Source of the DNA: Actinomycetota bacterium
GTDB lineage: Bacteria; Actinomycetota; Acidimicrobiia; Spongiisociales; UBA4744
DNA: 41,265 bases
Direction of reading: 5' to 3'
Assembly (NCBI GenBank): GCA_013152275.1
Contig: JAADGS010000046.1
Span: 1 to 41,265, forward strand
A program made the position numbers and the translations under genes. Each line of letters begins with the position of its first letter. The first letter of the stretch is position 1. The notes under the pieces were generated by a model. The model did no database searches. It was not told where the DNA came from and saw nothing but the letters and a program-made list of their open reading frames with translations. Positions 4,036 through 40,500 of this stretch are shown here, one piece after another.

Positions 4036-4199
4036 GGATGCGGTCCTGGAAGCCGTTGGCCCGTAGTCGGGAGCTCTCGGATCATCACAGCAAGGGAACT
4101 CCACCGCCCGCATCCGTCGATGACCGATCGGCCCGCCACCGGTTGTCAGGGAGCAATGATCTAGGCTTGGTTGCTCGCCCCCCGGAGAGGAGCAGGCGC

Positions 4200-6527: not shown

Positions 6528-7426
6528 CGGAACCAACGGCCCCGGTCTTCGACGTTCAGCGTTTCTCGCTCCACGACGGCCCCGGTATCCGATCCCTGGT
6601 CTTCCTCAAGGGCTGTGCCCTGCACTGCCCCTGGTGCCAGAATCCGGAATCGCAGGCGGCCCAACCGGTCATTGCCTTTTATGAAGATCGCTGTGAGGAG
6701 AGCTTCGAGTGCGCCGCGGTCTGTCCCAACGGGTCGATCCGGCTCGAAGGTTTCCGGGTCGACTACGGGCGCTGCGACCGGTGTGCGCTCTGCGTCGACG
6801 CCTGTGCGTACGGCGCGCTCCGGTTGATCGGTGAGACCCTCACGCCGCAACAGCTCATGGCACGGCTACTGGCGGATCGGCCCTACTACGAGAGCTCCGG
6901 CGGCGGGGTCACCTTCACCGGTGGTGAGCCGACACTTCACCACCGCTTCATGAAGCGCGTGCTCGAGCTCTGTAAGGGGGCCGGGGTTCATACGAATCTC
7001 GAGACCGCCGGGACCTTCTCGTGGGAGACGTGGGAGGAGACGCTTCGCTTACTGGATCTGATCTACTTCGATCTCAAGATCCTCGATTCGCAACTCCACG
7101 AACGGCAACTCGGCGGCGGTTTCGACAGGATCATGGAGAACGCCGTGAAGCTCGTCGCCGACGGGTTTCCGGTGGAGTTCCGGATGGCGCTGATCCCGGG
7201 TTTCACGGATACGCAGGCCAACATCGAAGCCGTCGTCGAACTCCTTCACGTGTTGGGACGGAAAACCATCCACCTGCTCGCCTACCACAACATGGGGGAG
7301 GCGAAGATCGACATCATCCGGGGAAGGCAACCCAAGCTCGGTCTTGCGCGCTACTCCGACGAACGTTGGCACGAGTTACGGAAGACCTTCGAGCTGCGCG
7401 GCGTCGAGGTGCCGGGAGTTCACTGA
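6524..7426 (+). CDS. Glycyl radical enzyme activase (radical SAM)
   Basis: A 300-residue protein. Near the N-terminus is the radical-SAM cluster motif GCALHCPWCQNPES (Cys-x3-Cys-x2-Cys), after RFSLHDGPGIRSLVFLKG, the hallmark of PFL-activating-type enzymes. A ferredoxin-like insert follows with CEESFECAAVCP (an irregular first set) and CDRCALCVDAC (a regular second set), then the GGEPTL SAM-binding motif. Such enzymes use reduced [4Fe-4S] and S-adenosylmethionine to take a hydrogen from the glycine of their partner. The GTG start at 6524 overlaps the enzyme's stop (GTGA), so this is almost certainly its dedicated partner. The two extra clusters place it with the class of activases serving non-PFL glycyl radical enzymes. 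Confidence 0.92.
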   Translation: MTEPTAPVFDVQRFSLHDGPGIRSLVFLKGCALHCPWCQNPESQAAQPVIAFYEDRCEESFECAAVCPNGSIRLEGFRVDYGRCDRCALCVDACAYGALRLIGETLTPQQLMARLLADRPYYESSGGGVTFTGGEPTLHHRFMKRVLELCKGAGVHTNLETAGTFSWETWEETLRLLDLIYFDLKILDSQLHERQLGGGFDRIMENAVKLVADGFPVEFRMALIPGFTDTQANIEAVVELLHVLGRKTIHLLAYHNMGEAKIDIIRGRQPKLGLARYSDERWHELRKTFELRGVEVPGVH

Positions 7427-7968: not shown

Positions 7969-8988
7969 ATGAAACTGATCCGTTCGGTGGCGCTCTTCGG
8001 CGTGCTGATGCTGCTTGTCGCCGCATGCGCCGGTCCGACCACCGCCACCGCCCCGTCGCCTACGACGGTTCCTGAAACCACGACAACGACCGCGGCACCG
8101 ACCACGTCGACCACGTCGACCACGGAACCGGCCACCACCACGACGACGGTGTTGCCGGAGGCTTTCCCGGTGACGATATCGGCCGCCAACGGGGAAGTGA
8201 CCGTCGAGTCGATGCCGAAGCACATCGTGTCACTGTCGCCAACGGGCACGGAGATGCTCTTCGCGATCGGTGCAGGTGACCAGGTGACGGCGGTCGACAG
8301 CTATTCGTACTATCCGGCGGAAGCGCCGGTCACCGAACTGTCGGCGTTTCAACCGGACGTCGAGGCGGTGGTGTCCTACGGACCCGATCTGGTCGTCGTA
8401 TCTCACGATCCGGATGGATTCGTAGCTGGCATGGAGGCTGTGGGCGTGACGGTGCTCATGCTGCCTGCTGCAGAGACACTGGATGACACGTACACCCAGA
8501 TCGAGCAGCTGGGGGCGGCCACAGGGCATGTGGGCGAGGCGGCGCTCTTGGTGGCAGATATGCAGACAGAGATCGACGAGATCGTCTCCGGTGTACCCGA
8601 GTTCGACGAGCCGCCGACCTATTTCCACGAGCTGAGTTCGTCGCTGTATTCGGCGTCGTCGGGAACCTTCATCGGTCAGGTATACGGCCTGTTGGGATTG
8701 GAGAACATTGCCGACGCGGCAGAAGGAGGGGGCCTCTATCCGCAACTGTCGGCGGAGTACATCATCGAGCAGGATCCGGACTTCATCTTCCTGGCCGATG
8801 CCGCCTGTTGTGGCGAATCGGCAGAGACGGTGGCGGCTCGGCCGGGATGGGGAGAGATGTCGGCGGTGACCGGAGGAAGAGTGGTGGAACTCGACACGGA
8901 CGTGGCATCGCGGTGGGGACCGCGCATCGTCGAGTTCCTCAAGACGGTCGCCGGAGCGGTGAGTAAGGCATCGGTGCCGACCGGGTGA
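7969..8988 (+). CDS. btuF: Corrinoid ABC transporter substrate-binding lipoprotein (BtuF type)
   Basis: A 339-residue lipoprotein. Residues 1-20 form a signal peptide with lipobox LVAAC, so Cys20 is the lipidated residue. A Thr/Pro-rich linker runs to about residue 62, followed by a periplasmic-binding fold of the BtuF/FhuD class (IVSLSPTGTEMLFAIGAGDQ, VVSYGPDLVVV, PGWGEMSAVTGGRVVELD). These proteins bind vitamin B12 or related corrinoids outside the membrane and deliver them to the permease. It is the first gene after the cobalamin riboswitch, and its start codon is the one whose ribosome site is hidden by the sequestor hairpin. Iron-siderophore binding proteins share the fold, but the riboswitch and the following cobalamin genes make corrinoid far more likely. 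Confidence 0.88.
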   Translation: MKLIRSVALFGVLMLLVAACAGPTTATAPSPTTVPETTTTTAAPTTSTTSTTEPATTTTTVLPEAFPVTISAANGEVTVESMPKHIVSLSPTGTEMLFAIGAGDQVTAVDSYSYYPAEAPVTELSAFQPDVEAVVSYGPDLVVVSHDPDGFVAGMEAVGVTVLMLPAAETLDDTYTQIEQLGAATGHVGEAALLVADMQTEIDEIVSGVPEFDEPPTYFHELSSSLYSASSGTFIGQVYGLLGLENIADAAEGGGLYPQLSAEYIIEQDPDFIFLADAACCGESAETVAARPGWGEMSAVTGGRVVELDTDVASRWGPRIVEFLKTVAGAVSKASVPTG

Positions 8989-10034
8989 ACACGAAGCTCG
9001 AAGCGACGCGACTCCCGGCCGGCTGGCTCGTGTTGGCCGGAGTCGCCGTCGCCGGGGCAGTGATCGTAGGGGTGTCGTTCGGTGCCGCCGATCTGTCGCT
9101 GGGGTCGATCTTGACCGAGTTCGTCAATCGGGTTCCCGGGATCCAACTCCACTCCGGTATGGGATCTGCGGAAGCAGCGGTCTTGTGGAAGATCCGGCTA
9201 CCGCGAGTCGTGTTGGGCCTCTTGGTGGGAGGGATGCTGGCGGTCGCAGGCAGTGCCTACCAAGGCGTGTTTCGGAATCCGTTGGCGGACCCTTATCTGC
9301 TTGGGGTGGCGGCGGGTGCCGGCTTGGGAGCAACGTTGGCCTTTGTGTACGGGGCGGGTTCGGGTGGTTTCCACGCGACGCTGCTGCCGGTGGCAGCGTT
9401 CGCGGGATCGATGATCGCTGTATCGGTCACCTACATGACCGGTTCGGGCGGCCGTGGCGGAACGTCGACGGCCTCTTTGATCCTTTCGGGGGTGGCAGTG
9501 GCCGCGATGTTGACCGCTGCCCAAACGTATCTTCAGCTCCGCCACACCGAGGTGCTGCGTGACGTTCTGTCGTGGGTGCTGGGGCGACTGTCGACGGCAG
9601 GCTGGCGCGAGGTGATCATCCTTCTCCCCTATGTCGTGGTCAGTGCGGGAGCTCTCGTATTGTCGCGCCGGGCACTCGATGTGCTGGCGCTCGGCGTCGA
9701 GGAGGCGTCGGCGCTGGGAGTCAATGTTCGGCAAGTCCGCATCGCAGTGTTGCTCTTCGCCAGTCTCGGTACGGCCGCGGCAGTTTCGGTGAGCGGGCTC
9801 ATCGGGTTTGTGGGCATCATCGTGCCTCACGCGGTCAGGATGGCTGTCGGTACGAGCTACCGCCGCATCATTCCACTTTCGTTGTTCGCGGGTGCTGCCT
9901 TTCTGGTGCTCGCGGACGTCATCGCACGATCGTTGATGTCTCCCGCGGAACTGCCGATCGGGGTGGTCACCGCGTTCGTGGGCGGCCCGTTCTTCTTGGT
10001 CGTGTTGCGTTCAACCCGGAAGGCGCTGTTGTGA
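8985..10034 (+). CDS. btuC: Corrinoid ABC transporter permease (BtuC type)
   Basis: 349 residues, highly hydrophobic, with about ten membrane spans as in the FecCD/BtuC family. Family segments include KIRLPRVVLGLLVGGMLAVAG near residue 70, GVFRNPLADPYLLGVAAGAG, and GLIGFVGIIVPHAVR near 265, the loop that contacts the ATPase. It would form a homodimeric channel for corrinoid import. The GTG start overlaps the btuF stop (GTGA), implying coupled translation. Confidence 0.92.
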   Translation: MNTKLEATRLPAGWLVLAGVAVAGAVIVGVSFGAADLSLGSILTEFVNRVPGIQLHSGMGSAEAAVLWKIRLPRVVLGLLVGGMLAVAGSAYQGVFRNPLADPYLLGVAAGAGLGATLAFVYGAGSGGFHATLLPVAAFAGSMIAVSVTYMTGSGGRGGTSTASLILSGVAVAAMLTAAQTYLQLRHTEVLRDVLSWVLGRLSTAGWREVIILLPYVVVSAGALVLSRRALDVLALGVEEASALGVNVRQVRIAVLLFASLGTAAAVSVSGLIGFVGIIVPHAVRMAVGTSYRRIIPLSLFAGAAFLVLADVIARSLMSPAELPIGVVTAFVGGPFFLVVLRSTRKALL

Positions 10035-10828
10035 CCGCCCTGTCCGTGGAGTCTCTCTCGGTTGCGTTTGGGGACGCGATCGTGCTGGACGATGTCTCCT
10101 TCGAAGTCGGGCCGGGCGAGTGGCTGACGGTGATCGGCCCCAATGGCGCCGGCAAATCAACGTTGCTGCTGGCGATCATGGGCTTGGTGAGCCATGGCGG
10201 GAAGGTGACCGTCGACGGTCACCATCGCTCGGATCTCAGGGGGAGGGAACTGGCAGGGAGGGTGGCATTCGTACCACAGCATCCGATGCGGCCCTCCGGT
10301 ATGCGCGTATTCGACTACGTCCTGTTGGGCCGGACACCACATCATTCGCTCTTCGCCACAGAATCGGAGAACGACCTCGATGCAACCCGCGAGGCTCTGG
10401 TCTTGCTCGATCTCGAGTCGCTGGCCGATCGGGACGTGTCGTCCCTGTCGGGCGGAGAGGCGCAACGGGCTGCTCTCGCCAGGGCGGTGGCGCAGCGGGC
10501 GCCGCTCGTGATCCTCGACGAGCCGAACAGTGCCCTCGACATCGGAAGGCAGCAGGAGGTGATGGGCATCATCGATGACATCCGGCACCTTCAGGGCCTG
10601 ACGGTGATCTCGACGTTTCACGACCTGGCTTTGGCCGGGCAATTCTCGGATCGCCTCGTGCTCCTGGACGACGGTCGAATCGTCGCGAGTGGCGACGCCC
10701 ACGACGTCTTGACCGAACCGATCATCGAGTCTGCCTATGGCGCGTCCGTGCGGGTGGTTTCGGAAACCGATGGGACGATCAGTGTCACTCCGCTGCGACG
10801 ACCTCGAATCGCAGAGGTGCGCCGATGA
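10031..10828 (+). CDS. btuD: Corrinoid ABC transporter ATPase (BtuD type)
   Basis: 265 residues from a GTG overlapping the btuC stop by 4 nt. It has a Walker A motif GPNGAGKST, a Q-loop region FVPQHPM, the signature LSGGEAQRAALARA, a Walker B motif VILDEPNSALD and a switch His in STFHDL. It matches the FepC/BtuD class of ATPases that power import through BtuC-type channels. With btuF and btuC it forms a complete importer. The frame is open far upstream inside btuC, but the protein-like sequence begins at this GTG. Confidence 0.92.
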   Translation: MTALSVESLSVAFGDAIVLDDVSFEVGPGEWLTVIGPNGAGKSTLLLAIMGLVSHGGKVTVDGHHRSDLRGRELAGRVAFVPQHPMRPSGMRVFDYVLLGRTPHHSLFATESENDLDATREALVLLDLESLADRDVSSLSGGEAQRAALARAVAQRAPLVILDEPNSALDIGRQQEVMGIIDDIRHLQGLTVISTFHDLALAGQFSDRLVLLDDGRIVASGDAHDVLTEPIIESAYGASVRVVSETDGTISVTPLRRPRIAEVRR

Positions 10829-11721
10829 GTGTGATTGTCGCCGGGATTGTGGACTGGTGGCTGGGTGAGGCACCGGCCGGCTGGCATCCCGTCCGGTGGA
10901 TGGGCAGATACTTGGAGAGAACCGGTTCCTGGATTCAACGCCCGGCGACCGACCGGGGAAAGCTGGTGGCAGGGGGAGCGGCTTGGCTGGGAGGGCTGAC
11001 CGGGGTGGCCGTTGCTGCGCTTGGAATCGACCGGTTCATCACTCGGCGGCTCCCCCCGGGCATGCAGGTGCTGATTCGAGGTCTGATCCTCAAGCAGATG
11101 CTGTCGCTTCGCCTGCTGCTGTTCGAGGTCCAGTCGGTCGAGACCGCTCTCGACGTCTCGGAGGAAGAAGGGCGTCGGCAGGTGAGACGGATCGTGAGTC
11201 GTGACACTGCACGATTGACGTCTGTCGAGGTGCGAGAGTCGGCGCTGGAGAGCCTGGCAGAGAACCTGGCGGACTCGGTGGTGGCCCCGATCTGGTGGTA
11301 CCTCGTGGCGGGATTGCCCGGCGCGATGGCCTTTCGGTATGTGAACACCGCGGATGCGATGTGGGGCTACCGCGGGGAGATGGAATGGCCCGGAAAAGTG
11401 GCGGCCGTCGCCGACGACATCGCCAACTTCGTTCCGGCGCGGATCACCGGGGTCCTCATCGGAGCCCCATCGGTCGGGCCGGGTCGGATCGGAGCGGAAG
11501 CGACCAAAGCGACGTCTCCCAACGGGGGATGGCCGATGGCCGCACTGGCTCTGCGGCTTGGCGTGCGCCTCTCGAAACCCGGTACCTACGTTCTGAATCC
11601 GGCCGGGCGTCCCCCGACACCCGGAGATACCCGAAGCGCGCTACGTATGGCCGCCGGGCGTTCGGCAGCCTGTCTGATGGCAGCCGCCTTGATGGAAGAG
11701 GCCGGCCGACGTGATCGGTGA
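10825..11721 (+). CDS. cbiB: Adenosylcobinamide-phosphate synthase (CbiB/CobD)
   Basis: 298 residues. The sequence has the family opening of a hydrophobic helix with HPVRWMG, the central ESALESLAENLADSVVAPIWWYLVAGLPGA region, and YRGEMEWPGKVAAVADDIANFVPARIT, all characteristic of CbiB. It is an integral membrane enzyme that attaches the aminopropanol arm to adenosylcobyric acid. The ATG overlaps the btuD stop (ATGA). It uses the product of CobQ and probably the aminopropanol phosphate made by the next gene's product. The symbol cobD is used for this enzyme in aerobic-pathway organisms. Confidence 0.92.
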   Translation: MSVIVAGIVDWWLGEAPAGWHPVRWMGRYLERTGSWIQRPATDRGKLVAGGAAWLGGLTGVAVAALGIDRFITRRLPPGMQVLIRGLILKQMLSLRLLLFEVQSVETALDVSEEEGRRQVRRIVSRDTARLTSVEVRESALESLAENLADSVVAPIWWYLVAGLPGAMAFRYVNTADAMWGYRGEMEWPGKVAAVADDIANFVPARITGVLIGAPSVGPGRIGAEATKATSPNGGWPMAALALRLGVRLSKPGTYVLNPAGRPPTPGDTRSALRMAAGRSAACLMAAALMEEAGRRDR

Positions 11722-12712
11722 CACTCACGGCGGAACCGACCTCGGGCCCGCGCCCCGGCTCGACTTCTCGACGAACGCCAATCCACTTGGACCGGATCCG
11801 CACGTGATGGCCGCCCTCCGAGACGTGAACGTCTCGGCGTATCCGGAACCGAGCTACACGGCGGTTCGTGGTCGCCTCGGTGCCTTCCACGAAGTCGACC
11901 CCGCGTGCGTCGTGGTGGGCGCAGGCGCTTCGGAGCTGATCCGCCGCCTGGTGACGTGGTGGTCCGGCCCGATCGTCGTCACGGATCCCACCTTCGGTGA
12001 ATACGCCGCGGCTGCATTTGCGGTAGGACGCCGAGTCATTACCGCGGGAGATGATGGTGACTTCCTTGCTGCGCTGGGCGGAGGTGCCCTCGGTTTCCTC
12101 TGCGTTCCCAACAATCCCGATGGCCGTCTGCCGCTCGAGGGGTTCGTCGAACAGGCCGCCGGGACCGCCGGCGCCTCGGGCGGCCTTCTCGTGATCGATG
12201 CCGCCTACGCGCCCTTCTGTTCACCTTGGCCGGTGTTGTCCTCCTCGGCGGTCGTGCTCCATGCACCGAACAAGGTCCACGGATGCACGGGGCTGCGCGC
12301 CGGCTACGCGGTCGTCCCTTCTCGGGAGATGGCGATCGAGCTGAGAAGGGTCGCTCCCTCGTGGGTCGTCGGCAACCACGGAGCATCGTTCCTGGCGGCA
12401 TCGGTGACGTCCCAGGCCCAGGAGTGGGTGAACGAGACAACCGGGACGCTGCGGACGTGGCGGGCCGATCTGGCAGACGGATTCCGGGTGCGAGGGTTTG
12501 CCGTGATCGAAGGGCCGGCGAACTTCCTGCTCGTCGATGTGGGGCACGCCGACACCGTGACCGAGACGCTGCGCGCCGACGGTCTCCGGGTGAGGTCATG
12601 CGTGTCGTTTGGCTTGCCCCGTCATGTGCGAATCGCCGCGCTTGCGCCCGAAGCCAACACCGAGCTGCTGGCCTCGGTCGATCGATCGGTACCTGGGGGA
12701 GTCACATCGTGA
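11711..12712 (+). CDS. PLP enzyme, threonine-phosphate decarboxylase / CobC-like
   Basis: 333 residues of the class-I/II aminotransferase fold, from a GTG at 11711 that overlaps cbiB by 11 nt. The start region LDFSTNANPLGPDPHV is typical of both CobD-type threonine-phosphate decarboxylases and histidinol-phosphate aminotransferases. The PLP lysine is probably in APNKVHGCTGLRAGYAV, where the usual SKxxGLAGLRxGY is altered. VPNNPDGRLP is the family's NPxxG segment. Between cbiB and cobQ the expected job is to make (R)-1-amino-2-propanol phosphate from threonine phosphate for the nucleotide loop. Aminotransferase activity cannot be excluded from sequence alone. Confidence 0.8.
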   Translation: MIGDTHGGTDLGPAPRLDFSTNANPLGPDPHVMAALRDVNVSAYPEPSYTAVRGRLGAFHEVDPACVVVGAGASELIRRLVTWWSGPIVVTDPTFGEYAAAAFAVGRRVITAGDDGDFLAALGGGALGFLCVPNNPDGRLPLEGFVEQAAGTAGASGGLLVIDAAYAPFCSPWPVLSSSAVVLHAPNKVHGCTGLRAGYAVVPSREMAIELRRVAPSWVVGNHGASFLAASVTSQAQEWVNETTGTLRTWRADLADGFRVRGFAVIEGPANFLLVDVGHADTVTETLRADGLRVRSCVSFGLPRHVRIAALAPEANTELLASVDRSVPGGVTS

Positions 12713-14121
12713 GGGCGCTCATGGTCCAGGGATGCACCAGTTCGGCGGGCAAGAGCCTCCTGGTGACGGCGCTCGCCCGCATCTACCGGCGCCGGGGCTT
12801 CTCCGTCGCACCATTCAAGGCGCAGAACATGTCGAACAACGCCCGGGTGGTCGCCGGCGGTGAGATCGGTGTTGCCCAATGGCTCCAAGCGATCGCCGCG
12901 GGGGTTCCTCCGGACGTCCGCATGAACCCGATTCTGGTCAAACCCGAACGAGAGGGAAGCCAGGTGGTCGTCGATGGACAGGTGGATTTCGAAGTCTCCA
13001 ACTTGCCGTGGCGCGACCGATCGCCTCGGGTGTGGCCCGCAGCCCGGCAGGCACTTCACTCCCTGCTCGAGGAGTACGCACTCGTTCTGATGGAAGGTGC
13101 CGGAAGCCCGGCCGAATTCAATCTGTGGGAGAGCGATATCGCCAACATGCGATCAGCGGAGGAGGCGGACGCCGCAGTACTGCTGGTGGTCGACATCGAT
13201 CGAGGTGGTGCATTCGCGCACCTGTATGGGACGTGGCTGTTGCTTCCGGAACCGCAGAGGGAGAGGATCGTCGGGTTCATCCTCAATCGGTTCCGGGGAG
13301 ATGCCTCGCTCCTGGCACCCGCCCCCGAACGAATCGAGGAGATGACGGGAGTCCCGGTGCTGGGCGTCGTACCTTGGATCGCCCACGGACTTCCCGACGA
13401 AGACAACGCTTCGCTCATCGGGCGGAAAGCGACAGGACGCCGACACCGTGTGACGATTGTTCGTTGGCCCACCATCTCGAACTTCGACGAGTTCTCGACG
13501 ATGGCCGGCTTGACCGATGTCATCTGGGCGGAAGATCCGCACGATCTCGAAGGTTCCGATCTCATCATCCTGCCCGGTTCCAAGCATGTCACCTCCGACC
13601 TCGAATGGTTCCGCCGGCGCGGATTCGAACAGGCGCTGGCGGCCGAAGCAGACAAAGGGACACAGATCGTGGGGATCTGTGGCGGGTTGCAGATGCTGGG
13701 GCAAAGGCTTCGCGACCCGAATGGCATCGACGGCGAAGCAGACGGCCTGGGACTCCTCGAAATCGAGACGATCTTCGAGCACGACAAGATCCTCACCGCC
13801 GAGAGCGGCGTCTTTGGCACCTGTCCGGAACCTTGGGAGAAGCTGTCCGATCGCAGCTTCACGGGATATGAGATCAGGCAAGGGAGGTCTGTTGCGGTCG
13901 GGTCGGTGGTCGAGGTACTGCCCCGCGGGCTCGGATATGCCTCCGGCAATGTCCTCGGACTGTACGTGCACGGTGTCTTCGAATCGTCGGACGTGTTGCA
14001 GGGACTCTTGGGCGTAGCCCCGGAGGGGTCACTGGAAGAGGAAATCGACATCGTGGCGGATCATTTCGAACGGTCACTCGACATGACGCGCATCGATGAG
14101 ATTCTCGGAGTGGCGCGATGA
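12709..14121 (+). CDS. cobQ: Cobyric acid synthase
   Basis: 470 residues from a GTG (12709) that overlaps the previous stop by 4 nt; an ATG four codons later is possible. An N-terminal dethiobiotin-synthetase-like ATP domain starts MVQGCTSSAGKSLLVTAL, with PFKAQNMSNNARV following. The C-terminal glutaminase domain has the nucleophile Cys324 in GICGGLQMLGQ and a His in LYVHGVFES. The enzyme adds four amide groups to adenosylcobyrinic acid a,c-diamide in the cytoplasm. A long frame reaches back to 12226, but the upstream part is an out-of-frame reading of the preceding gene. CobB, the enzyme before it in the pathway, is not in the window. Confidence 0.94.
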   Translation: MRALMVQGCTSSAGKSLLVTALARIYRRRGFSVAPFKAQNMSNNARVVAGGEIGVAQWLQAIAAGVPPDVRMNPILVKPEREGSQVVVDGQVDFEVSNLPWRDRSPRVWPAARQALHSLLEEYALVLMEGAGSPAEFNLWESDIANMRSAEEADAAVLLVVDIDRGGAFAHLYGTWLLLPEPQRERIVGFILNRFRGDASLLAPAPERIEEMTGVPVLGVVPWIAHGLPDEDNASLIGRKATGRRHRVTIVRWPTISNFDEFSTMAGLTDVIWAEDPHDLEGSDLIILPGSKHVTSDLEWFRRRGFEQALAAEADKGTQIVGICGGLQMLGQRLRDPNGIDGEADGLGLLEIETIFEHDKILTAESGVFGTCPEPWEKLSDRSFTGYEIRQGRSVAVGSVVEVLPRGLGYASGNVLGLYVHGVFESSDVLQGLLGVAPEGSLEEEIDIVADHFERSLDMTRIDEILGVAR

Positions 14122-14669
14122 CCTCTCCCTCGTCCGGCAAGCCCCTTCACCGTTCTGCATCCCGAGTCCTGGTCAACACAGGCCACGGGAAAGGCAAGAC
14201 CTCGGCTGCCATGGGTGTCATGATCCGCGGAGTTGCCCGGGGGTGGAACGTCGCCGTAGTTCAGTTCATCAAGTCGGCTGACCGTCCGACCGGTGAAGCG
14301 AAGATAGGCGAGAGGCTCGGCGTCGACTGGTACACCCTTGGCGATGGCTTCACCTGGCGGTCCCAGGACCTGGACCGCAGCGCCGCCCTCGCCCGCGCCG
14401 GGTGGGAGAAGGCCCGGGCGCTCATCGAGGAGGGAAACCACGAACTGGTGATCCTCGACGAGATCACCTACCCGCTCAACTGGGGTTGGATCCCCGTGGA
14501 GGAAGCGGTGGAGACGATTCGCCAACGCCCCGGCAAGGTGAACGTCATCATCACGGGACGGGATGTTCCCTCCGAGATCATCGACATCGCGGACACCGTC
14601 ACCGAGATGTGCAAGGTGAAACATGCCCACGACCATGGCATTCGCGCCAAGAAAGGTATCGAATACTGA
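14118..14669 (+). CDS. cobO: Cob(I)yrinic acid a,c-diamide adenosyltransferase (CobO/BtuR type)
   Basis: 183 residues with the P-loop NTGHGKGKTSAAMG, then VVQFIKS, the LVILDEITYPLNWGW segment, and VIITGRDVPSEIIDIADTVTEM, matching the CobA/CobO/BtuR family. The enzyme transfers adenosyl from ATP to reduced cobalt, making the coenzyme form; with imported corrinoids this is the first chemical step of salvage. Its ATG overlaps the cobQ stop by 4 nt, and its own stop overlaps the next start (TGATG). Confidence 0.93.
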   Translation: MTSPSSGKPLHRSASRVLVNTGHGKGKTSAAMGVMIRGVARGWNVAVVQFIKSADRPTGEAKIGERLGVDWYTLGDGFTWRSQDLDRSAALARAGWEKARALIEEGNHELVILDEITYPLNWGWIPVEEAVETIRQRPGKVNVIITGRDVPSEIIDIADTVTEMCKVKHAHDHGIRAKKGIEY

Positions 14670-15202
14670 TGAGCCTCACCGTGATCCTTGGTGGTGCCCG
14701 TTCGGGGAAGAGCGGCATGGCGCAGCGCCTGGCCCGGGCGACCGGTCGCCCGGTCGTCTTCCTGGCCACCGCGACGGCCGGAGACGACGAGATGGCAGCC
14801 AGAATCGAACGGCACCGCCGTGAACGGCCCACCGACTGGGTGGTCATCGAAGAGCCGGTCGACCTTTCCGGCACGCTCGAGAGGATCGATGGTGAAGACA
14901 CCGTCATCATCGACTGTGTGACGTTGTGGTTGTCCAACGTGTTGGGAATCGGTTGGAGCGAACCGACGATTCTCGCCGGCGCAGCGGAGACTGCCCAACG
15001 GGCGGGAACCCGGCCGGGAGAGACGATCGTTGTGTCAAACGAAGTGGGGATGGGCGTGGTCCCGGTGACTCCACTCGGGAGGAGCTTTCGGGATCTCGCC
15101 GGCCGGGTCAATCGAACGTGGGTCGACGCCGCAGACCGGGCCGGTCTGGTAGTGGCAGGCCGAGTCCTTCCCCTGCTGATGCCGTTGAAGTGGGACGAGT
15201 AG
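14669..15202 (+). CDS. cobU: Adenosylcobinamide kinase / phosphate guanylyltransferase
   Basis: 177 residues, starting MSLTVILGGARSGKSGMAQ with a P-loop. FLATATAGDDEMAARIERHR contains the His expected to be guanylylated, and the segments IIDCVTLWLSNVL and VSNEVGMGVVPVTPLGRSFRD are typical of CobU/CobP. It activates adenosylcobinamide (phosphate) to the GDP form for joining to alpha-ribazole. The start shares one base with the cobO stop. Confidence 0.93.
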   Translation: MSLTVILGGARSGKSGMAQRLARATGRPVVFLATATAGDDEMAARIERHRRERPTDWVVIEEPVDLSGTLERIDGEDTVIIDCVTLWLSNVLGIGWSEPTILAGAAETAQRAGTRPGETIVVSNEVGMGVVPVTPLGRSFRDLAGRVNRTWVDAADRAGLVVAGRVLPLLMPLKWDE

Positions 15203-15229
15203 ACGATCCGAACAGGAGCACGAGACGAA

Positions 15230-16228
15230 ATGAACAGCGCAACCCTCACTGGTCTGCTGGCCGAAGCGCCACAGCCGGACTCTGATGCGGCCGCGGCGGT
15301 GGCGGCCCGGGTCGCCGACATCCTTCGCCCGAAGGGTGCCCTCGCCCGACTGGACGACATTGCCGTCTGGCTGGCGGGTTGGCAACGCTCGAGCCGCCCC
15401 GCGGTGAAGAGCCCCGCAGTGCTGCTCTTCGCCGGCGACCACGGGGTGTGCGTCGATGGGGTGAGCGCCTATCCCGCCGAGGTCACCGGGGCAATGTGCC
15501 ATGCGATGCGCTCCGGGGTGGCAACGGTGACAGCGATGGCGGGCACCCTCGACGCGACGGTTGAATTGATCGACGTGGGAGTCGGCAAACCCACCGGCAA
15601 TCTGCGAGTCGAGCCGGCGATGTCGGAGGAACGGTTTGGGGAAGCCTTCGGGGCGGGCCGTGCTGCGGTCGCGCGGATCGAGACAGACTTGCTCGTGCTT
15701 GGCGAGATGGGGATCGGCAACACGACCGCAGCCGCCACGATCGCCGCGGCGGTCACCGGAAGCGATCCAAGTCTTTGGGTCGGCTCGGGAACCGGGGTGA
15801 ACAGCCGGGCACTCGAGGGCAAACGAGCGGTTGTCTCCGAAGCGGTACGACGGATTGCCGACGTGACCGATCCCCTCGAGGTGCTGCGCCAGGTCGGGGG
15901 AACCGAGTTGGTGGCCATGGCCGGCGCGGCCGTTGAAGCCCGGCTCCGATCGATCCCGGTGTTGCTGGACGGCTACGTCGTGACCGCTGCCTTGTACCCA
16001 TTGGAGAAGGCGGTCCCCGGCGCTCTCGATCACACCTTGGCCGGACACGTGTCGTCCGAACCGGGACACCGCAAGCTACTCGAGCTGCTCGGCAAGAAGC
16101 CGTTGCTCGATCTTGGGCTCAGGCTGGGGGAGGCGTCTGGTGCGCTGGCCGCTCTCCCGCTGGTCCGACTGGCTGCGGTCGTGGTAACCGACGTGGCCAC
16201 TTTCGCCGAGGTCGGGCTCGGCCGATGA
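15230..16228 (+). CDS. cobT: Nicotinate-nucleotide:dimethylbenzimidazole phosphoribosyltransferase
   Basis: 332 residues. Family segments include FAGDHGVCVDGVSAYP, TDLLVLGEMGIGNTTAAA, GTGVNS and LLDGYVVTAAL. The catalytic Glu is in RLGEASGA, a variant of the usual LGEGTGA. The enzyme makes alpha-ribazole phosphate, the lower ligand precursor. The gene follows cobU after a 27-nt gap with AGGAG before the ATG. No gene for making dimethylbenzimidazole (bluB or the anaerobic bza set) is in the window, so the lower base may be imported or made elsewhere. Confidence 0.93.
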   Translation: MNSATLTGLLAEAPQPDSDAAAAVAARVADILRPKGALARLDDIAVWLAGWQRSSRPAVKSPAVLLFAGDHGVCVDGVSAYPAEVTGAMCHAMRSGVATVTAMAGTLDATVELIDVGVGKPTGNLRVEPAMSEERFGEAFGAGRAAVARIETDLLVLGEMGIGNTTAAATIAAAVTGSDPSLWVGSGTGVNSRALEGKRAVVSEAVRRIADVTDPLEVLRQVGGTELVAMAGAAVEARLRSIPVLLDGYVVTAALYPLEKAVPGALDHTLAGHVSSEPGHRKLLELLGKKPLLDLGLRLGEASGALAALPLVRLAAVVVTDVATFAEVGLGR

Positions 16229-16992
16229 TCGGTCTGCGGCAGGCGATCGGGCTCCTCACTCGGGTTCCGGTGCGTGTCCCAGGGCCATCCGATGGTGTCC
16301 CGTCGGCCGGAGTGGCGTGGTTTCCGGCCGTCGGCATTCTGGTCGGCGCACTGGCGGGCGGGACATACGCTGCCGGTTTGCTGGTGATGCCGGCCCTTCC
16401 GGCAGCGGTCGCCGCAATAGCGATGGGGGTGCTCGTCACCGGTGCGCTGCATGAGGACGGCCTGGCCGACACCTGTGATGCTCTCGCAGGCGGGCAATCG
16501 CCGGAGCACCGGATGGAGATCCTCAAGGACTCTCGTCACGGCTCGTACGGCGTGCTGGCGCTGGTGCTCACGGTGGGCATGAGGGTGACGTTGGTGGGAT
16601 CACTGGGTGCCGGTTCCGGAATGGTGGCCCTTGTGGTCGCCCACACACTGGGACGGGCACTGGTGGGAGTGGCCATGTTCGTTGGAAAACCGGCGGCGGC
16701 CGAAGGTCTGGGGGCTCGCTACCGGGCCGGACTGGGTGCTTCCCACGCCACGGTTGCAGGCGTCGGTGGTCTGCTCGTGGTGGTTGCCCTGCTCGGATGG
16801 CCCGGGCCGGCTGTGGTGTTGCTGGGAGCCCTGGCCGCGGCAGGGGTCTTGTGGTGGGCTCACGCACGGATCGGCGGGTTCACCGGCGACATTCTCGGTG
16901 CCATCGAACAGGCCGTCGAAGTGGTGTCCCTGGCAGCCGTCGTCGTGCTCGTCGGCAGCGTCAGGGCGGCTGTTCCCTGGTGGAGTACCTGA
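16225..16992 (+). CDS. cobS: Adenosylcobinamide-GDP ribazoletransferase (cobalamin synthase)
   Basis: 255 residues and very hydrophobic, with several membrane helices. It carries the family motif ALHEDGLADTCDALAGG and the DSRHGSYG loop. The membrane enzyme joins adenosylcobinamide-GDP to alpha-ribazole (phosphate), the last assembly step. The ATG overlaps the cobT stop by 4 nt. The aqueous loop carrying DGLADTCDAL is where the Mg2+ would bind. Confidence 0.92.
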   Translation: MIGLRQAIGLLTRVPVRVPGPSDGVPSAGVAWFPAVGILVGALAGGTYAAGLLVMPALPAAVAAIAMGVLVTGALHEDGLADTCDALAGGQSPEHRMEILKDSRHGSYGVLALVLTVGMRVTLVGSLGAGSGMVALVVAHTLGRALVGVAMFVGKPAAAEGLGARYRAGLGASHATVAGVGGLLVVVALLGWPGPAVVLLGALAAAGVLWWAHARIGGFTGDILGAIEQAVEVVSLAAVVVLVGSVRAAVPWWST

Positions 16993-20885: not shown

Positions 20886-23633
20886 ATGGAGCGTTACTTG
20901 GACGTGAACCTAGGCCAGAGTCCTGGCGGGCGTGTGGCTTCATCGAGTCAGTTTGCCGAGCTGGCGCGCGCCGTGGTGGCAGGATCCAAGGTGACGATGG
21001 TGTTTCAGCCCATCTTCGATCTTCGAGAACGTCGGGATGGAGGGAGGAGTCCGGTTGGTGTGGAGGCACTGGCCCGGTTCGGGATCGCGGGATCTCCACA
21101 GCTCGTGTTCGACGCCGCCGAGGGGATGGGCCTCGGAGTCGATCTCGAGATTGCGACGTTGCGTGCGGCTCTCGCGTATCTGGATCGGCTGCCGGCCGGG
21201 ATGTTCCTGACTGTGAACGTGTCTGCGACGGCCCTGGCGTCGGGGCGGGTCGGAGAGGCAATCCCTGCGGAGGTGGCAGAGCGTGTCGTGTTGGATCTCG
21301 TGGCGGGCGCGCAAGTGGTCGAGACGTGTGACGAAGCCGGGCTCGACCGTTTGGTGGAGGCCATATCCGATGTGCGCAGGGCGGGAGTTCGGGTGGCGTT
21401 GGACGATGTTGCCATGGCGCCAGAGGTTGTCTCGGATCTGGTGCTGTTGCCATTTGACATCCTCAAGCTGGACCGGGCGGTCGTGAGCGGCATCGACGCC
21501 GACTCCACCAAACAGGCAGCCGCGAGAGCGATCGTAGATCTCGCCGAGACGCTCGGAGTCCCGGTGATGGCCGAAGCGATCGAAACGGAGGCGGAAGCCA
21601 AGGTACTCGTTGAACAGGGTGTGCTGTTCGGTCAAGGATTCCACCTTGGCAGACCCGCCGTCTTCGGTGGGTGGGACGAGGCACGGCCGACATCATCTGG
21701 TAAGCCATTGGAGTGGGCTGCCACAGGACACGGTGTCAGTCAACCAAATGGCGAGTTCTCGCGAGAGGGGCTGCTGGGCTTCGCTTTGGATCGTGCGCCG
21801 ATCGTGGTGTGGGCGATCGACACCGACGGGGTGTTCACCCTGTCGGAGGGGGGAGCTCTCGCCGGGATGGGCGTTGCCCCCGGTGAGGTGGTCGGTCGTT
21901 CGGTGTTTGAGCTGTATGCGGGAAACGCGAGTGTGTTGGAGCCGACTCGTGCAGCCCTTCGGGGTGAGACGTCCGAATCGGTTATGCGGATGGGCTCATC
22001 GGTGTTCAGCACATCGTATGCGCCGCTGCGCGACGGCGAAGGCAGGGTGATCGGAGCTTCCGGCGTGGCGGTGAACATCAACGATGCGGTACGGGCTCGC
22101 GAGGAAGTCGAACGCAGCGAGGCTCGACGACTCGCTCTGTTCGAAACGGCACCGATCGGAGTCTGGGTCGGGACCGCCAACGGGCGACTCATCGAAGTGA
22201 ACGACGGATACCTCGACATGTTCGATATCGCTTCGAAGCAAGAGGCGCTCTCTTTGGATCTGGTTCGGCTCTGGCCGTCACCGGGTCACCGCGAACGGTT
22301 TCAGGATCGACTTCGCAGAGAAGGCGTGATCCGTGGTTTCGAGACAGAACTGATCAGTGCAAAAGGGCGCCCCATCCTCGCGCGAGTGTCGGCACGGTAC
22401 CTCGCGGAGACTGATGAGGTGGAAGGCATGGTCGAGGACATCACGGCAGAGGCCGCGGCGCGTTCGGCCGTTGCCGACTCGGAACGACGTTTTCGTGCCC
22501 TGTTCGAATCGGCACCGATCGCGTTGCAGGTGGAGGACTTCACCGATGTTGTCGCGTGGCTGGACGAGCTCGGCGTTGCTCCAGGCGACCTTGCCGGCTA
22601 CTTCGCCGCCCACCCCGGAAAGATCAGGGAGGGGCTGGGTCTCATCAAGATCACGAACGCGAACCCCGCCGCCATGCAGCTGTTCGGTCTCAAGCGATCG
22701 GAGCATCTCGGGCCACTGTCGAAACGTTCCGCCCTCCCTGCGTTCGCAGACCCCGAAGCAGTTACGTTGCGCAGCATCGCCAACAGAATCGCGACCTTCG
22801 AACGCCGAGCTACGGCCGAGATTCCCGGAAGGGGCGTCATCGATCTCGAGATCCGCTGGACGGCACCGGATCAGGGTGGAACGCCCGACTACTCGCAGGT
22901 GATCGCAGCGTTCGTCGACGTCACGAGTCTGGTCGAAGCAACACGGCGCGCCGAGGAACTCGCCGACATCAAGGGGCGTCTCATGGCGTCCGTGTCACAC
23001 GAACTCCGCACCCCGCTGGCTGCCGTCGTCGGCTTTGCCGATCTTCTCGAAGGAGGACAGTCGTCACTTTCCGAATCCGAAACGGCCGAGGCGATTCATC
23101 TCATCGCGTCGACCAGCCGACAGATGGGCGGCATCGTCGAAGACCTCCTCACCTCGGCAAGAACGGATGTCAGAACCCTGGCAACTGCGCCGACGATGAT
23201 CAGTTTGGGCGATGAACTCAACGCCGCGTTGCCTACCTGCGATACGGAAGACCGGCATGTCCACATACCTGCGGTGGACGCATGGGCGTGGGCGGACAGG
23301 GGCCGCACGCGTCAGATCATCCGCAACCTGATCAACAACGCCATACGGCACGGATCGGGAGACATCCAAATCGAAACCGCCTCCAGTGACGATCAGGTCA
23401 CCCTACGGGTGATCGACCACGGCAATGGGGTCCCCAACGATGACGCCGCGAAGATCTTCGATCTGTACTGGAGTGGGCACGACGCTCCTGGGCACACGAA
23501 CGCGCTCGGAATCGGCCTCAGCCTCTCGCGAACACTCGCCCGACTCATGGGGGGAGACCTGACCTACCGGCGAGATAACGGACGAACCATTTTCGAACTC
23601 ACCCTTCCGGCGTCACCAGCACCCGAACATTGA
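20886..23633 (+). CDS. EAL domain - PAS - histidine kinase fusion
   Basis: 915 residues, with no signal peptide or membrane span seen. Residues about 20-260 are an EAL (cyclic-di-GMP phosphodiesterase) domain: VGVEALARFG with Glu60, TVNVSATAL, ALDDVAMAP, DILKLDR, AEAIETEAEA and GQGFHLGRP keep most metal and catalytic positions. The usual ELTE is DLVA, and the DFGTGYSSL loop 6 is replaced by DVAMAPEVV, so activity may be low or absent. Two clear PAS-like repeats follow (about 290-400 and 405-520) and a third, longer one (about 525-680). The kinase core has SHELRTPL with phospho-acceptor His705, an N-box IIRNLINNAIRHG, and a G-box GIGLSLSRTLARLMGGDL. It probably senses c-di-GMP and other cues and signals by phosphotransfer; no response regulator is adjacent. 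Confidence 0.85.
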   Translation: MERYLDVNLGQSPGGRVASSSQFAELARAVVAGSKVTMVFQPIFDLRERRDGGRSPVGVEALARFGIAGSPQLVFDAAEGMGLGVDLEIATLRAALAYLDRLPAGMFLTVNVSATALASGRVGEAIPAEVAERVVLDLVAGAQVVETCDEAGLDRLVEAISDVRRAGVRVALDDVAMAPEVVSDLVLLPFDILKLDRAVVSGIDADSTKQAAARAIVDLAETLGVPVMAEAIETEAEAKVLVEQGVLFGQGFHLGRPAVFGGWDEARPTSSGKPLEWAATGHGVSQPNGEFSREGLLGFALDRAPIVVWAIDTDGVFTLSEGGALAGMGVAPGEVVGRSVFELYAGNASVLEPTRAALRGETSESVMRMGSSVFSTSYAPLRDGEGRVIGASGVAVNINDAVRAREEVERSEARRLALFETAPIGVWVGTANGRLIEVNDGYLDMFDIASKQEALSLDLVRLWPSPGHRERFQDRLRREGVIRGFETELISAKGRPILARVSARYLAETDEVEGMVEDITAEAAARSAVADSERRFRALFESAPIALQVEDFTDVVAWLDELGVAPGDLAGYFAAHPGKIREGLGLIKITNANPAAMQLFGLKRSEHLGPLSKRSALPAFADPEAVTLRSIANRIATFERRATAEIPGRGVIDLEIRWTAPDQGGTPDYSQVIAAFVDVTSLVEATRRAEELADIKGRLMASVSHELRTPLAAVVGFADLLEGGQSSLSESETAEAIHLIASTSRQMGGIVEDLLTSARTDVRTLATAPTMISLGDELNAALPTCDTEDRHVHIPAVDAWAWADRGRTRQIIRNLINNAIRHGSGDIQIETASSDDQVTLRVIDHGNGVPNDDAAKIFDLYWSGHDAPGHTNALGIGLSLSRTLARLMGGDLTYRRDNGRTIFELTLPASPAPEH

Positions 23634-25717: not shown

Positions 25718-26494
25718 TCAGCCTGGGAAATCCCGCTCAATCGGTGAGGAGATGATGTCGTTGTACTCGTCCCGAGAGATGTAGGTGGGTGTGTACGTCA
25801 CACCGCGCTGGGCGAGCTCCGCGACGAACAGCCGCAGGTGGTTGCGAGACGCCATCTGCGCGACCGCGTAGACGAGAGCGACGTCAGGGACATCGGTCGC
25901 TCGCTGCTGCAGGTCGAAGATATCCATCTCTTCGACGGTCGCGCCGACGGTGAGGGCGGCGACTACGGATTGACTGCCCTCGGCCAGGAACTTGTCGTAC
26001 GCCTTCTGCAGATCCGCATTGGTGAACAGTCCTGTCGGCTCGCCGGCGGCGGGGTCGTCGAGGCTGTACCTCTCCAGCAGTTGTGCGATCGCATCGGTGT
26101 GTGTCTGTTCCGCTGCCGCGATGTTGGCGAAGATCGGGAGTTGCCATTTGTCGTACAGTGCCGTGTACACGTCGTGGCCGAGCTTCTCTTCTTCCCGTGT
26201 CCATAGGAGGTCGTCGATCTGTTGCGAAGTCAGTGTCGAGGTAGGCATTCTCGAGAGGTGGGCCTTCAGCTCCTCGGCACCAACCGATGTGACTCCGGCG
26301 TCATCAACGTAGACGGTGCCGGCAGTGGGGGCAGTGCCGACTTCGGTCACCGTTGTCGTCGGCTCTGTCGTGGTCGACTTCTGGGGAGTTGTCTGAGCCG
26401 AGCACGCGCTCAGTAGGAGCGTGAAAGCAACGGCCACGATCAGACCGATCTTCCACCATCTCTTGGAATCGTTGAGATCGCCGTGTTCGTTCAT
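25718..26494 (-). CDS. DUF2202 ferritin-like lipoprotein
   Basis: 258 residues. A basic N-terminus and hydrophobic segment end in the lipobox LLSAC (Cys31), followed by a Thr-rich linker. The DUF2202 domain runs from about residue 85: DDLLWTREEEKLGHDVYTAL, IFANIAAAEQTHTDAI, then YAVAQMASRNHLRLF. These Glu and His positions form a four-helix ferritin-like bundle that could hold a di-metal site. The function of the family is not established. AAGGAGG lies 8 nt before the ATG. An Asp-rich small gene remnant lies just upstream on the same strand. Confidence 0.88.
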   Translation of the reverse strand: MNEHGDLNDSKRWWKIGLIVAVAFTLLLSACSAQTTPQKSTTTEPTTTVTEVGTAPTAGTVYVDDAGVTSVGAEELKAHLSRMPTSTLTSQQIDDLLWTREEEKLGHDVYTALYDKWQLPIFANIAAAEQTHTDAIAQLLERYSLDDPAAGEPTGLFTNADLQKAYDKFLAEGSQSVVAALTVGATVEEMDIFDLQQRATDVPDVALVYAVAQMASRNHLRLFVAELAQRGVTYTPTYISRDEYNDIISSPIERDFPG

Positions 26495-37570: not shown

Positions 37571-40500
37571 GTGAAACGCAAGAGATGGACCGTACTGGCG
37601 ATCTTCGCGATGGTGGTGGCACTGTTGCCTCTCAGCGCAGCGCCGGCGGCAGGGACGGCAGGGACGTCGGTATTCATCAATGAGATCCACTATGACAACA
37701 CCGGCGGTGACACAGGTGAGGCAGTGGAGGTCGCCGGACCGGCCGGCACCGACCTCACGGGGTGGAGCATCGTGCTCTACAACGGAAGCGGCGGTGCCAA
37801 CTACGGTACGATCGATCTCTCGGGAACCATTCCGGATCAAATGGCGGGTTATGGCACCCTTTCGTTCCCACAAGCGAGCATCCAGAATGGCGCTCCCGAC
37901 GGCCTGGCACTCGTCGACAACAGCAGCACGGTGGTCCAGTTCCTGAGCTATGAGGGGACGTTCACCGCGACCACCGGTCCGGCAGATGGCATGACCAGTA
38001 CCGACATCGGCGTCTCCGAAAGCTCCTCGACGCCGGTCGGTGACTCGCTCCAACTCGTCGGCACCGGTTCGATCTACGAGGACTTCACCTGGACGGGACC
38101 GACACCCGCGACCTTCGGGGCCGTCAACACGGGGCAGACTCTTACCGCGGTGCCCGCTCCGGACGTCACGAACACGATCTACGAGATTCAGTACACGACC
38201 GGTGATGCCTCGCCGCTGGCCGGGCAGACGGTGGTGACCGAGGGTGTCGTCACCGCCGTGTTTGGCAGGAAGGTCTTCATCCAGGACGGAACGGGGCCGT
38301 TCAGTGGACTGTATCTGTACAACCCGAGCCCGATCCCTGCCGTCGGCAACGTCGTTCGAGTCCAAGGCCAGGTCAAGGAGTACCACGGCAAGACGGAGAT
38401 CGACGGTGGTGCACTGTGGAACATTGGTCCCGGGACGTTTCCGGCGCCCGAAGTGCTGGCCACCGGGGATATCGCCCGAGAGCAGTGGGAGTCCGTCTTC
38501 GTCCGTGCCGAGAATGCGACGGTCGTCGATCCCGATCTGGGACACGGCGAATGGTCGGTCGACGATGACAGCGGGCCGGTGCGAGTCGACGATCTCGGCT
38601 CATACGGCTACGTACCGTATGCCGGCGATCCGGTGACGTTCGTGCAAGGACCCCTCGACTATGCCTATGGCAACTTCAAGATCGAGCCACGTGACGACGG
38701 GGACCTCTTCGTCGATCTGCGTGCCTGCGGCCTCCGGTACACACCGATCTACGACATCCAGGGCAGCGGCGATGCCAGCCCGATCGAGGGTTCCATGATC
38801 TGGACCGAAGGTGTCGTGACCGCCGACTTTCAGGAATCGAGTGAGCTGAAAGGCTTCTTCCTGCAGGACGCCGCCGGTGACGGTGACGTCGCGACATCCG
38901 ATGGCATCTTCGTGTACCAGAAGGCGATGTGGGGCGACGTGGAGGTCGGCCAGCATCTGCGTTTCCAGGCGAAGGTGGCCGAGTACTACGGACTGACGGA
39001 GCTGAAGTATGTGTCCGACCTGACCGTGTGCGGCAGCGGGTCGGTTACACCGACCGCCGTCGATCTGCCGGTGGCAGAGGATGATCGCGAGCCGTACGAG
39101 GGCATGCTGCTGACATTCCCGGAATCCCTCGCGGTGGCCGACAGCTACAACCTGACGAAGTATGGCGAGGTCATCCTGTCGGCCGATGGGCGGCTGTTCG
39201 CTCCGACCAATCAGTTCGCTCCGAGCTTCGACTGGTACGACTCGAACGACAGTGACGGTGTCGCGGAGATCCTCGAACCGCGTCTCCTCGTCCTCGACGA
39301 CGCCAGCAACCACCAGTATCCGGATCCGGTTCCCTACATTCAGCCGTACGGAACCCTTCGCTGGGGTGACACGACGACCGATCTCACCGGGGTGCTCACC
39401 TACGCCTACGGTGCGTACAAGTTGGAGCCGACCGAGGCGGTCGTCTTCTCCGAGGACAACCCGAGGCCCGGCACACCTCCCGGCGTGGGCGGTGTGATCA
39501 AGGTCGGATCGTTCAACCTACACAACTGGTGGACGACGCTCGGAGGCCGTGGTGCCCGAAGTGAGAGCCAGTTGGAGAAGCAGGGAGCCAAACTCGTTGC
39601 TGCTATCACGGGCCTTGGAGCCGATGTCATCGGCGTTCAGGAACTCGAGAACAATGGAGACACGGCGGTTTCCGCTCTCGTCGATCTGCTGAACGCAGAA
39701 GAGGGCGCCGGGACGTGGGACTACATCCGGGATCCCGACTACCCGGGTGGCATCGAAGCCACGAACGCCATCAAGGTGGGGATCATCTACAAGCCCGCGG
39801 TGGTCAGCCCCGTCGGTGACGCGCAGTGGAGCCTCGACGCCTCGTTCGCGGAAGCGCGGCCTCCTCTGGCACAGACCTTCGAGTTCTATGGGGACGAGTT
39901 CACGCTGGTCGTGAATCACTTCAAGTCGAAGGGTTACTACGGGGATACGCTCGCCGAGGGCGATGAGGACATTGGCGACGGCCAGGGCTACTACAACGCC
40001 ACGAGGGTCAGCCAAGCCCGTGCGGTCGTGGAGTTCGTATCTGCATTGGAAGATGCCGGCAAGCCGAACGTTCTCGCGGTCGGCGATTTGAACGTCTATG
40101 CGAAAGAGGATCCGGTTGTCGTGCTCGAGGCAGACCTGGAGAATCTTCTGGCAGGACTTCCGATCAACGACAAATACTCGTACACGTACTATGGGCAGGC
40201 CGGCGAGCTCGACTACGCCTTCGCCAACGACGCGATGCAGGAGTATGTGCGCGGTGCGGGGATCTGGCACATCGATGCGGCAGAACCGGTCGGGTTCAAC
40301 TACTACGGAGCGAGCTCGCTCTACGCTGCGGATCCGTTCCGGGCGTCCGACCACGATCCGGTGATCGTCGGCGTCTGTGAGCTGATACCGCCGGAGATCT
40401 ACCTGAGCGCCGATCCGGACGTGCTCTTCCCACCGAATCACAGGTACGTCGAGGTGAACGTCGACGTGACCGTCGTCGACAACTACCCCCAGGATGTCGA

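Follow-up and report, generated by a model that had tools for sequence, protein, structure and literature searches.

A degenerate EAL domain at the N-terminus of a PAS-histidine kinase in one genus of Acidimicrobiia

Introduction

What does an EAL domain do at the front of a histidine kinase? The question is raised by a gene in a 41,265-nucleotide stretch of DNA from an Actinomycetota bacterium (Acidimicrobiia; Spongiisociales; UBA4744; assembly GCA_013152275.1, contig JAADGS010000046.1, positions 1 to 41,265), the whole of which we call the window. The gene, at 20886-23633 on the plus strand, is a single open reading frame (ORF) of 915 amino acids (aa) with an ATG start, and encodes a protein of the architecture EAL-PAS-PAS-PAS-HisKA-HATPase_c. 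An earlier interpretation made from the letters alone (the sequence-only reading) proposed that the EAL domain might be a receptor for cyclic di-GMP (c-di-GMP) that gates phosphorylation. Our analysis establishes that the fusion is real, conserved and apparently lineage-specific, and that its EAL domain has changed at defined positions. Published work is cited below by PMC number, in each case from excerpts of the source.

Architecture and conservation of the fusion

The EAL domain occupies aa 26-257 (20961-21656) and is recognized both by its Pfam profile (PF00563; 115.2 bits against a cut-off of 31.3, E 3.8e-33) and by its fold in an AlphaFold2 (AF2) model of aa 1-290, with a predicted local distance difference test (pLDDT) score of 85.8. 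Behind it lie PAS1 (PAS_4, aa 301-401; 21786-22088) and PAS2 (aa 415-520; 22128-22445), each called by Pfam and by AF2, and a PAS3-like unit (around aa 546-678; 22521-22919) that is seen in the AF2 secondary structure with no Pfam call; a listing of 31 kinases indicates that the sequence pattern of this third unit recurs among kinases of the order. The protein ends as a HisKA-type histidine kinase, with HisKA at aa 696-760 (22971-23165; Pfam E 5e-15), including the phospho-acceptor His705, and HATPase_c at aa 804-909 (23295-23612; Pfam E 1.1e-20). Its kinase motifs, to which we assign the roles that we take them to have in such enzymes, are SHELRTP (with His705), RNLINNAIRHG, DHGNG and LGIGLSL. 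No Response_reg match was found in the fusion (Pfam, E up to 1), and it is not a RocR-type REC-EAL protein. All of these features lie on the plus strand. The profiles and models thus uphold the view that an N-terminal EAL domain sits on a complete PAS-histidine kinase and that parts of two signalling systems share one chain.

The same fusion occurs in another genome of the genus, G050 (L066:7495-10233, minus strand; 82% identity over aa 1-913), which rules out an assembly artefact. Between the two genes the ratio of nonsynonymous to synonymous substitution rates (dN/dS, by the NG86 method) is 0.144 for the whole protein, 0.124 for the EAL domain, 0.047 for HisKA and 0.146 for HATPase_c, and only the first 25 residues show a value of around 1 (1.03). 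The EAL domain, with its dN/dS of 0.124, is under purifying selection and is therefore being maintained.

Residues lost and kept in the EAL domain

Residues were compared across 152 distinct EAL domains (184 hits before removal of duplicates), and the register was set with an alignment of 60 rows, comprising the window fusion, that of G050 and 58 others. The RocR numbering used here (E265, E268) and the placing of 13 functional residues on the fusion are those that we take to be correct. The two glutamate columns of the ELTE motif, where E makes up 97% and 100% of the other 58 rows, align with D137 and A140; D137 lies within an AF2 strand at 134-139; and the ELTEHAQVDDY of relatives falls opposite DLVAGAQVVET in the fusion. 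These observations bear out the earlier suggestion that ELTE has become DLVA (aa 137-140; 21294-21305), and by the same evidence we reject another register, given by a small MAFFT alignment and by alignment A1, in which E146 matches an ELTE glutamate. At this site the metal-ligand glutamate is replaced by D137 and the loop-6 anchor glutamate by A140. Past the ELTE strand the fusion has six residues more than its relatives, at about aa 142-147 (21309-21326), as judged by eye and from the conserved columns 140 and 153; in the AF2 model this segment is helical, at lower confidence.

Loop 6 (aa 173-182; 21402-21431) is indeed replaced, as had been noticed from the sequence: it reads DDVAMAPEVV, with the Asp pair kept and both glycines lost, against DDVGAGMASL or DDAGAGFASL, for example, in relatives. 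The E268 position is E in 145 of the 152 domains, D in four, A in two (both fusions) and a gap in one, and five have D at the E265 position, counting the two fusions. The change of both loop-6 glycines to alanine (G-x-G to A-x-A) is confined to the fusions; both glycines are missing from L064, L132 and L188 as well, which have T/A, H/S and H/T, respectively. At the KLD position, G replaces D in 14 of the 152 domains. A DNA-pattern search for the loop-6 motif over nine genomes gave matches only in the window's genome.

The fusion keeps 39 of the 48 columns that are conserved at a level of at least 85% in the 58 relatives, the nine changes being W74V, E137D, T139V, E140A, Y153L, G176A, G178A, P190F and G231A. 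Furthermore, 11 of the 13 functional residues, on a list that follows PMC11537037, are kept in both species (Q41, E60, R64, N111, D173, D174, K194, D196, E230, E233 and Q250), and the claim that most catalytic positions remain therefore stands. The full residue set of a class I phosphodiesterase is absent (E265 to D137, E268 to A140, loop-6 G-x-G to A-x-A), and ExLxR (E60, A61, L62, R64) is kept in both fusions beside this incomplete catalytic set, which is the sequence pattern of a degenerate EAL receptor. In a modelled EAL domain of M. tuberculosis, the glutamate equivalent to E268 hydrogen-bonds both loop-6 glycines (PMC2994820), so the anchor glutamate and the loop-6 glycines may have been lost together as one mechanical unit. 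PMC7290235, citing Rao 2009, calls loop 6 essential to the dimerization of EAL domains and to their binding of Mg and c-di-GMP, and we draw its role further from PMC12900916. Judged by these residues, catalysis by the EAL domain is probably impaired.

Distribution of the fusion

The searches covered 138 genomes at the level of the order and 396 sampled genomes of the phylum, the latter among the matches listed; a contig scan covered the best 80 of 441 relatives. At loci L001-L065 and L079-L109 the flanks are at most 1.5 kb, and long ORFs there may be cut. Among 64 EAL proteins scanned with Pfam (the two fusions and the 62 nearest that were fetched), HisKA/HATPase_c is present in two, namely the fusions themselves. 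Among the first 189 loci, the only ORFs that contain both EAL and kinase profiles are pieces from G000 and G050. In a further 40 loci picked for long EAL frames, none of the 43 EAL ORFs has a kinase profile, and the seven that were scanned with Pfam carry GGDEF, CBS, GAF, PAS or REC. The search for this architecture across genomes, a check that the sequence-only reading had named, thus places the EAL-kinase fusion in two genomes of one genus only, within the samples searched.

The same reading called the EAL-first order unusual. A leading EAL domain is, however, not unique to the window, because CBS and GGDEF stand behind one in the proteins L211:2566-4833 and L213:2462-5248. No fusion of an EAL domain with a histidine kinase was found in the open-licence literature searched, including the excerpts of PMC1183210 and PMC9239204, which is weak evidence of absence; nor was anything found there on c-di-GMP together with EAL in Acidimicrobiia.

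Likely origin of the EAL domain

Outside the genus, the best EAL matches in the 138 genomes of the order are stand-alone proteins of around 270-312 aa in G002-G005 (genus g5), with 39-42% identity and E values of 1.4e-42 to 3.6e-46. Each of these four genomes, of the five in g5, has one such stand-alone EAL gene directly downstream of a PAS-kinase gene on the same strand, and a CHASE domain was confirmed for the kinase of G004. In the fifth genome, G006 (68% complete), the contig that bears the kinase (3,017 bases) ends around 480 bases past it, and an EAL gene could thus have been cut off. G002 has a second EAL copy, which adjoins a GGDEF-EAL gene (L071).

The fusions and the g5 stand-alone EALs form a clade in a careful tree of 65 EAL domains (support 96/87), from which the long-branch rows L042, L168 and L147 were left out, and again in a quick tree of 68 rows (84 by the Shimodaira-Hasegawa-like approximate likelihood ratio test). 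The stem of the two fusion EALs is long, with 1.11 changes per column in the careful tree. Their g5 sisters have an intact catalytic set and intact loop-6 glycines, with DDVGAGMASL or DDVGAGLASL as loop 6.

Wider relatives include receiver-EAL proteins (L109, L183, L124, L157, L081 and L112), some of which adjoin a kinase ORF; the kinase at L183 has confirmed PAS domains. By Pfam, 21 of the 64 EAL proteins carry a receiver, a count that we prefer to that of our own receiver hidden Markov model, which probably undercounts, and 20 match GAF (PF01590). With our own profiles, a same-strand kinase ORF lies no more than 300 nucleotides (nt) away for six of 11 receiver-EAL ORFs in the contig-scan loci, and for 21 of the 89 distinct EAL domains in these loci (stop-to-stop spans). 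Of these 21, 15 come from a single Micrococcaceae lineage, where a GGDEF-EAL-type gene is the neighbour of the kinase gene (Pfam check in L163). These counts run counter to a universal pairing of EAL with kinase genes.

The likely source of the fused domain, which the sequence-only reading missed, is an EAL subfamily in which receiver-EAL response regulators occur as well as stand-alone EALs, and in which some members are kinase-adjacent. An output domain appears to have been turned into the N-terminal domain of a kinase, since the nearest EALs are stand-alone, some adjoin kinases, and 21 of the 64 carry a receiver.

The Micrococcaceae loci have an arrangement of their own, a one-strand triplet of a histidine kinase, an EAL protein (GGDEF-EAL by Pfam in L163) and a further EAL. 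It occurs at L163:2280-6783 and at 14 other loci (L132, L142, L148, L156, L159, L160, L167, L173, L174, L177, L179, L186, L188 and L189), and in many of the last EALs the first loop-6 glycine is replaced by H or Y and the KLD aspartate by G.

Kinship of the kinase and structure models

The fused kinase falls within the order's own PAS3-kinase family, nearest to the kinase that neighbours the fusion in G050 (90/88, for a row that is short and on a long branch) and then, weakly, to the f7 kinases (54/84). Its descent from an EAL-adjacent kinase of g5 is not supported by the kinase trees, although constraining it to the g5 kinases costs 13.9 log-likelihood units with an approximately unbiased test value (p-AU) of 0.137, and the joint clade is not rejected.

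A third EAL-kinase arrangement was found in some genomes of family f7. There a gene with GGDEF-like and EAL parts overlaps a downstream kinase gene by 4 nt (L072:5050-8300, L073:5391-8641 and L074:7577-12018; Pfam for L072 and L074), and this pair shares the EAL-then-kinase order of the fusion.

The AF2 model of the EAL part matches, by VIA Z, BifA (8arv; 26.8), FimX (4fok; 25.8), RocR (3sy8; 25.1) and LapD (3pjt; 24.5). The predicted fold is shared with active phosphodiesterases and with the receptors FimX and LapD alike, a match of fold only that says nothing on binding. A second model, of aa 290-915 (mean pLDDT 82.3), has three PAS-like units joined by helices, then DHp helices and the catalytic domain, and among solved structures it most resembles sensor kinases and PAS or phytochrome proteins. 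Both models have low confidence in the linker that joins EAL to PAS1 (around aa 265-304; 21678-21797), which stands at the end of one and at the start of the other.

c-di-GMP in the cell

In the window's genome, GGDEF occurs with EAL in one protein, with HD-GYP in another (its motif being GGEEF), and as a partial match in a third; receiver-like sequence is seen by eye near the start of the latter two. In G050 there are two GGDEF matches and five HD_5 matches, and the fusion is the sole EAL. Since GGDEF-HD-GYP and GGDEF-EAL proteins are encoded, c-di-GMP is probably made in these bacteria. A search for PilZ gave no match in any of nine genomes, while it was positive in five of 14 control genomes. 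In this cellular context a receptor role for the fused EAL domain is plausible but not required.

Possible roles of the fused EAL domain

We propose that the fusion is a soluble PAS kinase whose N-terminal EAL domain, coming from an output or stand-alone lineage, would bind c-di-GMP, hydrolyse it weakly or not at all, and serve as an input or localization module; on the residues and kinships described above, we hold this proposal to be evenly balanced between right and wrong. A soluble PAS-type sensor histidine kinase would have gained the domain from a receiver-EAL or kinase-adjacent stand-alone lineage. The domain would then have given up efficient hydrolysis and kept its binding, and the former output module would act as input or localization module for the kinase, as the GGDEF domain does in SgmT, with the PAS domains adding further cytosolic input. 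Because the linker is probably flexible, c-di-GMP would more probably affect how the kinase dimer docks, where it is located or which intermolecular contacts it makes than twist a rigid signalling helix. Judging from the models, an effect on docking or localization is at least as likely as the allosteric gating that was first suggested. A bolder version, an inversion of output into input in which an EAL output fused to a kinase, lost its loop-6 switch and now feeds c-di-GMP into a phosphorelay where PilZ is not found, we regard as possible though tentative. If true, it would give the first EAL-type c-di-GMP receptor histidine kinase, as far as our searches go.

Several results weigh against the proposal. 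FimX and LapD lost other EAL positions than the fusion did, and are thus imperfect precedents. The functional residues of the domain are kept no better than its other conserved columns (11 of 13 against 28 of 35; Fisher p = 1), and the kinase trees do not group the fused kinase with the EAL-adjacent kinases of g5. No receiver-domain or response-regulator match was obtained among the 10 neighbouring ORFs of the window that were scanned, and the lack of a PilZ match leaves room for other c-di-GMP receptors. As for simple gating, the low-confidence linker argues against rigid or direct allosteric control of the kinase by the EAL domain, and the arrangement of domains in the PAS-kinase model is unreliable because its predicted template modelling score (pTM) is 0.47. 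The precedent of SgmT from Myxococcus xanthus argues in the same direction: c-di-GMP binding altered its localization but had no significant effect on its autophosphorylation or phosphotransfer (PMC3509222).

Three other explanations keep the fusion and differ in what they make of its EAL domain. It could be the decaying passenger of a chance fusion, as the long stem of 1.11 changes per column might suggest. However, the reading frame is intact in two genomes, and the dN/dS of the domain (0.124) is close to that of the rest of the protein, with values of around 1 only in the first 25 residues; already disfavoured, and rejected on dN/dS, this explanation is very improbable. Purifying selection on a domain with no intact catalytic set is also what would be expected if the EAL no longer bound c-di-GMP and served the kinase as a protein-interaction, dimerization or localization module, in what we take to be a likeness to YdiV. 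The reported part of loop 6 in binding c-di-GMP as well (PMC7290235), and the fact that functional residues are not preferentially kept, would both fit such a module; yet 11 of the 13 functional residues persist in both species, against 12 of 13 absent in the class III EAL protein BvgR (PMC11537037), and we consider loss of binding rather unlikely.

The remaining explanation is that the EAL domain has kept its phosphodiesterase activity, which may be weak or confined to the kinase dimer, and that the PAS-kinase would control it as a c-di-GMP-lowering output arm. The metal-site positions are kept except for the conservative change of E to D, which recurs at the E265 position in some of the domains compared (five of 152, fusions counted); K194, E230 and E233 are kept; and the stand-alone sisters look complete at the metal and loop-6 sites. 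Against this stand the loss of the loop-6 glycines, of the anchoring glutamate and of the glycine of EGxE (A231), and the view that loop 6 is essential for dimerization, Mg and c-di-GMP binding (PMC7290235). A working enzyme is thus, in our judgement, unlikely.

Gene neighbourhood

In the window the fusion gene lies between genes for an alpha/beta hydrolase on one side and an amino-acid permease on the other, and in G050 it adjoins another PAS-kinase gene. Upstream, 7969-16992 encodes a periplasmic binding protein, a FecCD permease, CobA/CobO, a DBI_PRT phosphoribosyltransferase and CobS, and is probably a cluster for cobalamin uptake and synthesis. Upstream of the binding-protein and permease pair and the cobalamin genes, at 4038-7426, a glycyl radical enzyme (PFL-like with Gly_radical, 829 aa) overlaps by 4 nt with an activase-like radical-SAM protein (300 aa). 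A DUF2202 protein is encoded at 25718-26494, with an N-terminus that appears lipoprotein-like by eye, and a 1057-aa protein with an endonuclease/exonuclease/phosphatase domain at 37571-40744, the start of which appears signal-peptide-like by eye.

Comparison with known systems

Kinases that bind c-di-GMP and degenerate EAL receptors are both already known, and the EAL-histidine kinase fusion is new to the literature searched. ShkA and PdtaS are histidine kinases, and the c-di-GMP site of CckA is its catalytic domain. CckA, ShkA, PdtaS and SgmT are tabulated as c-di-GMP-binding kinases in PMC10519070; ShkA binds through a pseudo-receiver and PdtaS through a GAF domain, and for CckA, ShkA and PdtaS the excerpted table gives no EAL domain. 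The fusion resembles SgmT as an orphan histidine kinase in which a domain of the c-di-GMP turnover type would be the receptor beside a second sensor, GAF in SgmT and PAS in the fusion (PMC3509222). SgmT, however, has a C-terminal GGDEF domain with an I-site, and a receiver, whereas the fusion has an N-terminal degenerate EAL domain and no receiver, and binding has been shown for SgmT only.

With FimX and LapD, reviewed as c-di-GMP-binding degenerate EALs in PMC12564702, the fusion shares the EAL fold (Z 25.8 and 24.5), but neither of these is a kinase. With RocR-type REC-EAL proteins it shares the fold (3sy8, Z 25.1) and the EAL subfamily, 21 of 64 members of which carry a receiver; in contrast, the fusion lacks a receiver, holds its EAL domain inside a kinase, and has lost the loop-6 glycines and the anchor. 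The EAL and PAS-kinase pair of G002-G005 provides the closest EALs, next to a kinase of the same broad family that shares PAS3. There the two are separate genes, the catalytic set and loop-6 glycines are intact, and the kinase input is CHASE (G004).

If our proposal is true, a second-messenger enzyme has become a receptor and has changed its place in a two-component pathway from last to first. The fusion would then also be a candidate effector of c-di-GMP where the PilZ search gave no match (all nine genomes searched). The fusion, its split-gene sister and the receiver-EAL relatives are all on hand for comparison, and the joint loss of anchor and loop 6 in the fusions, against intact sisters, makes such an enzyme-to-receptor switch directly testable.

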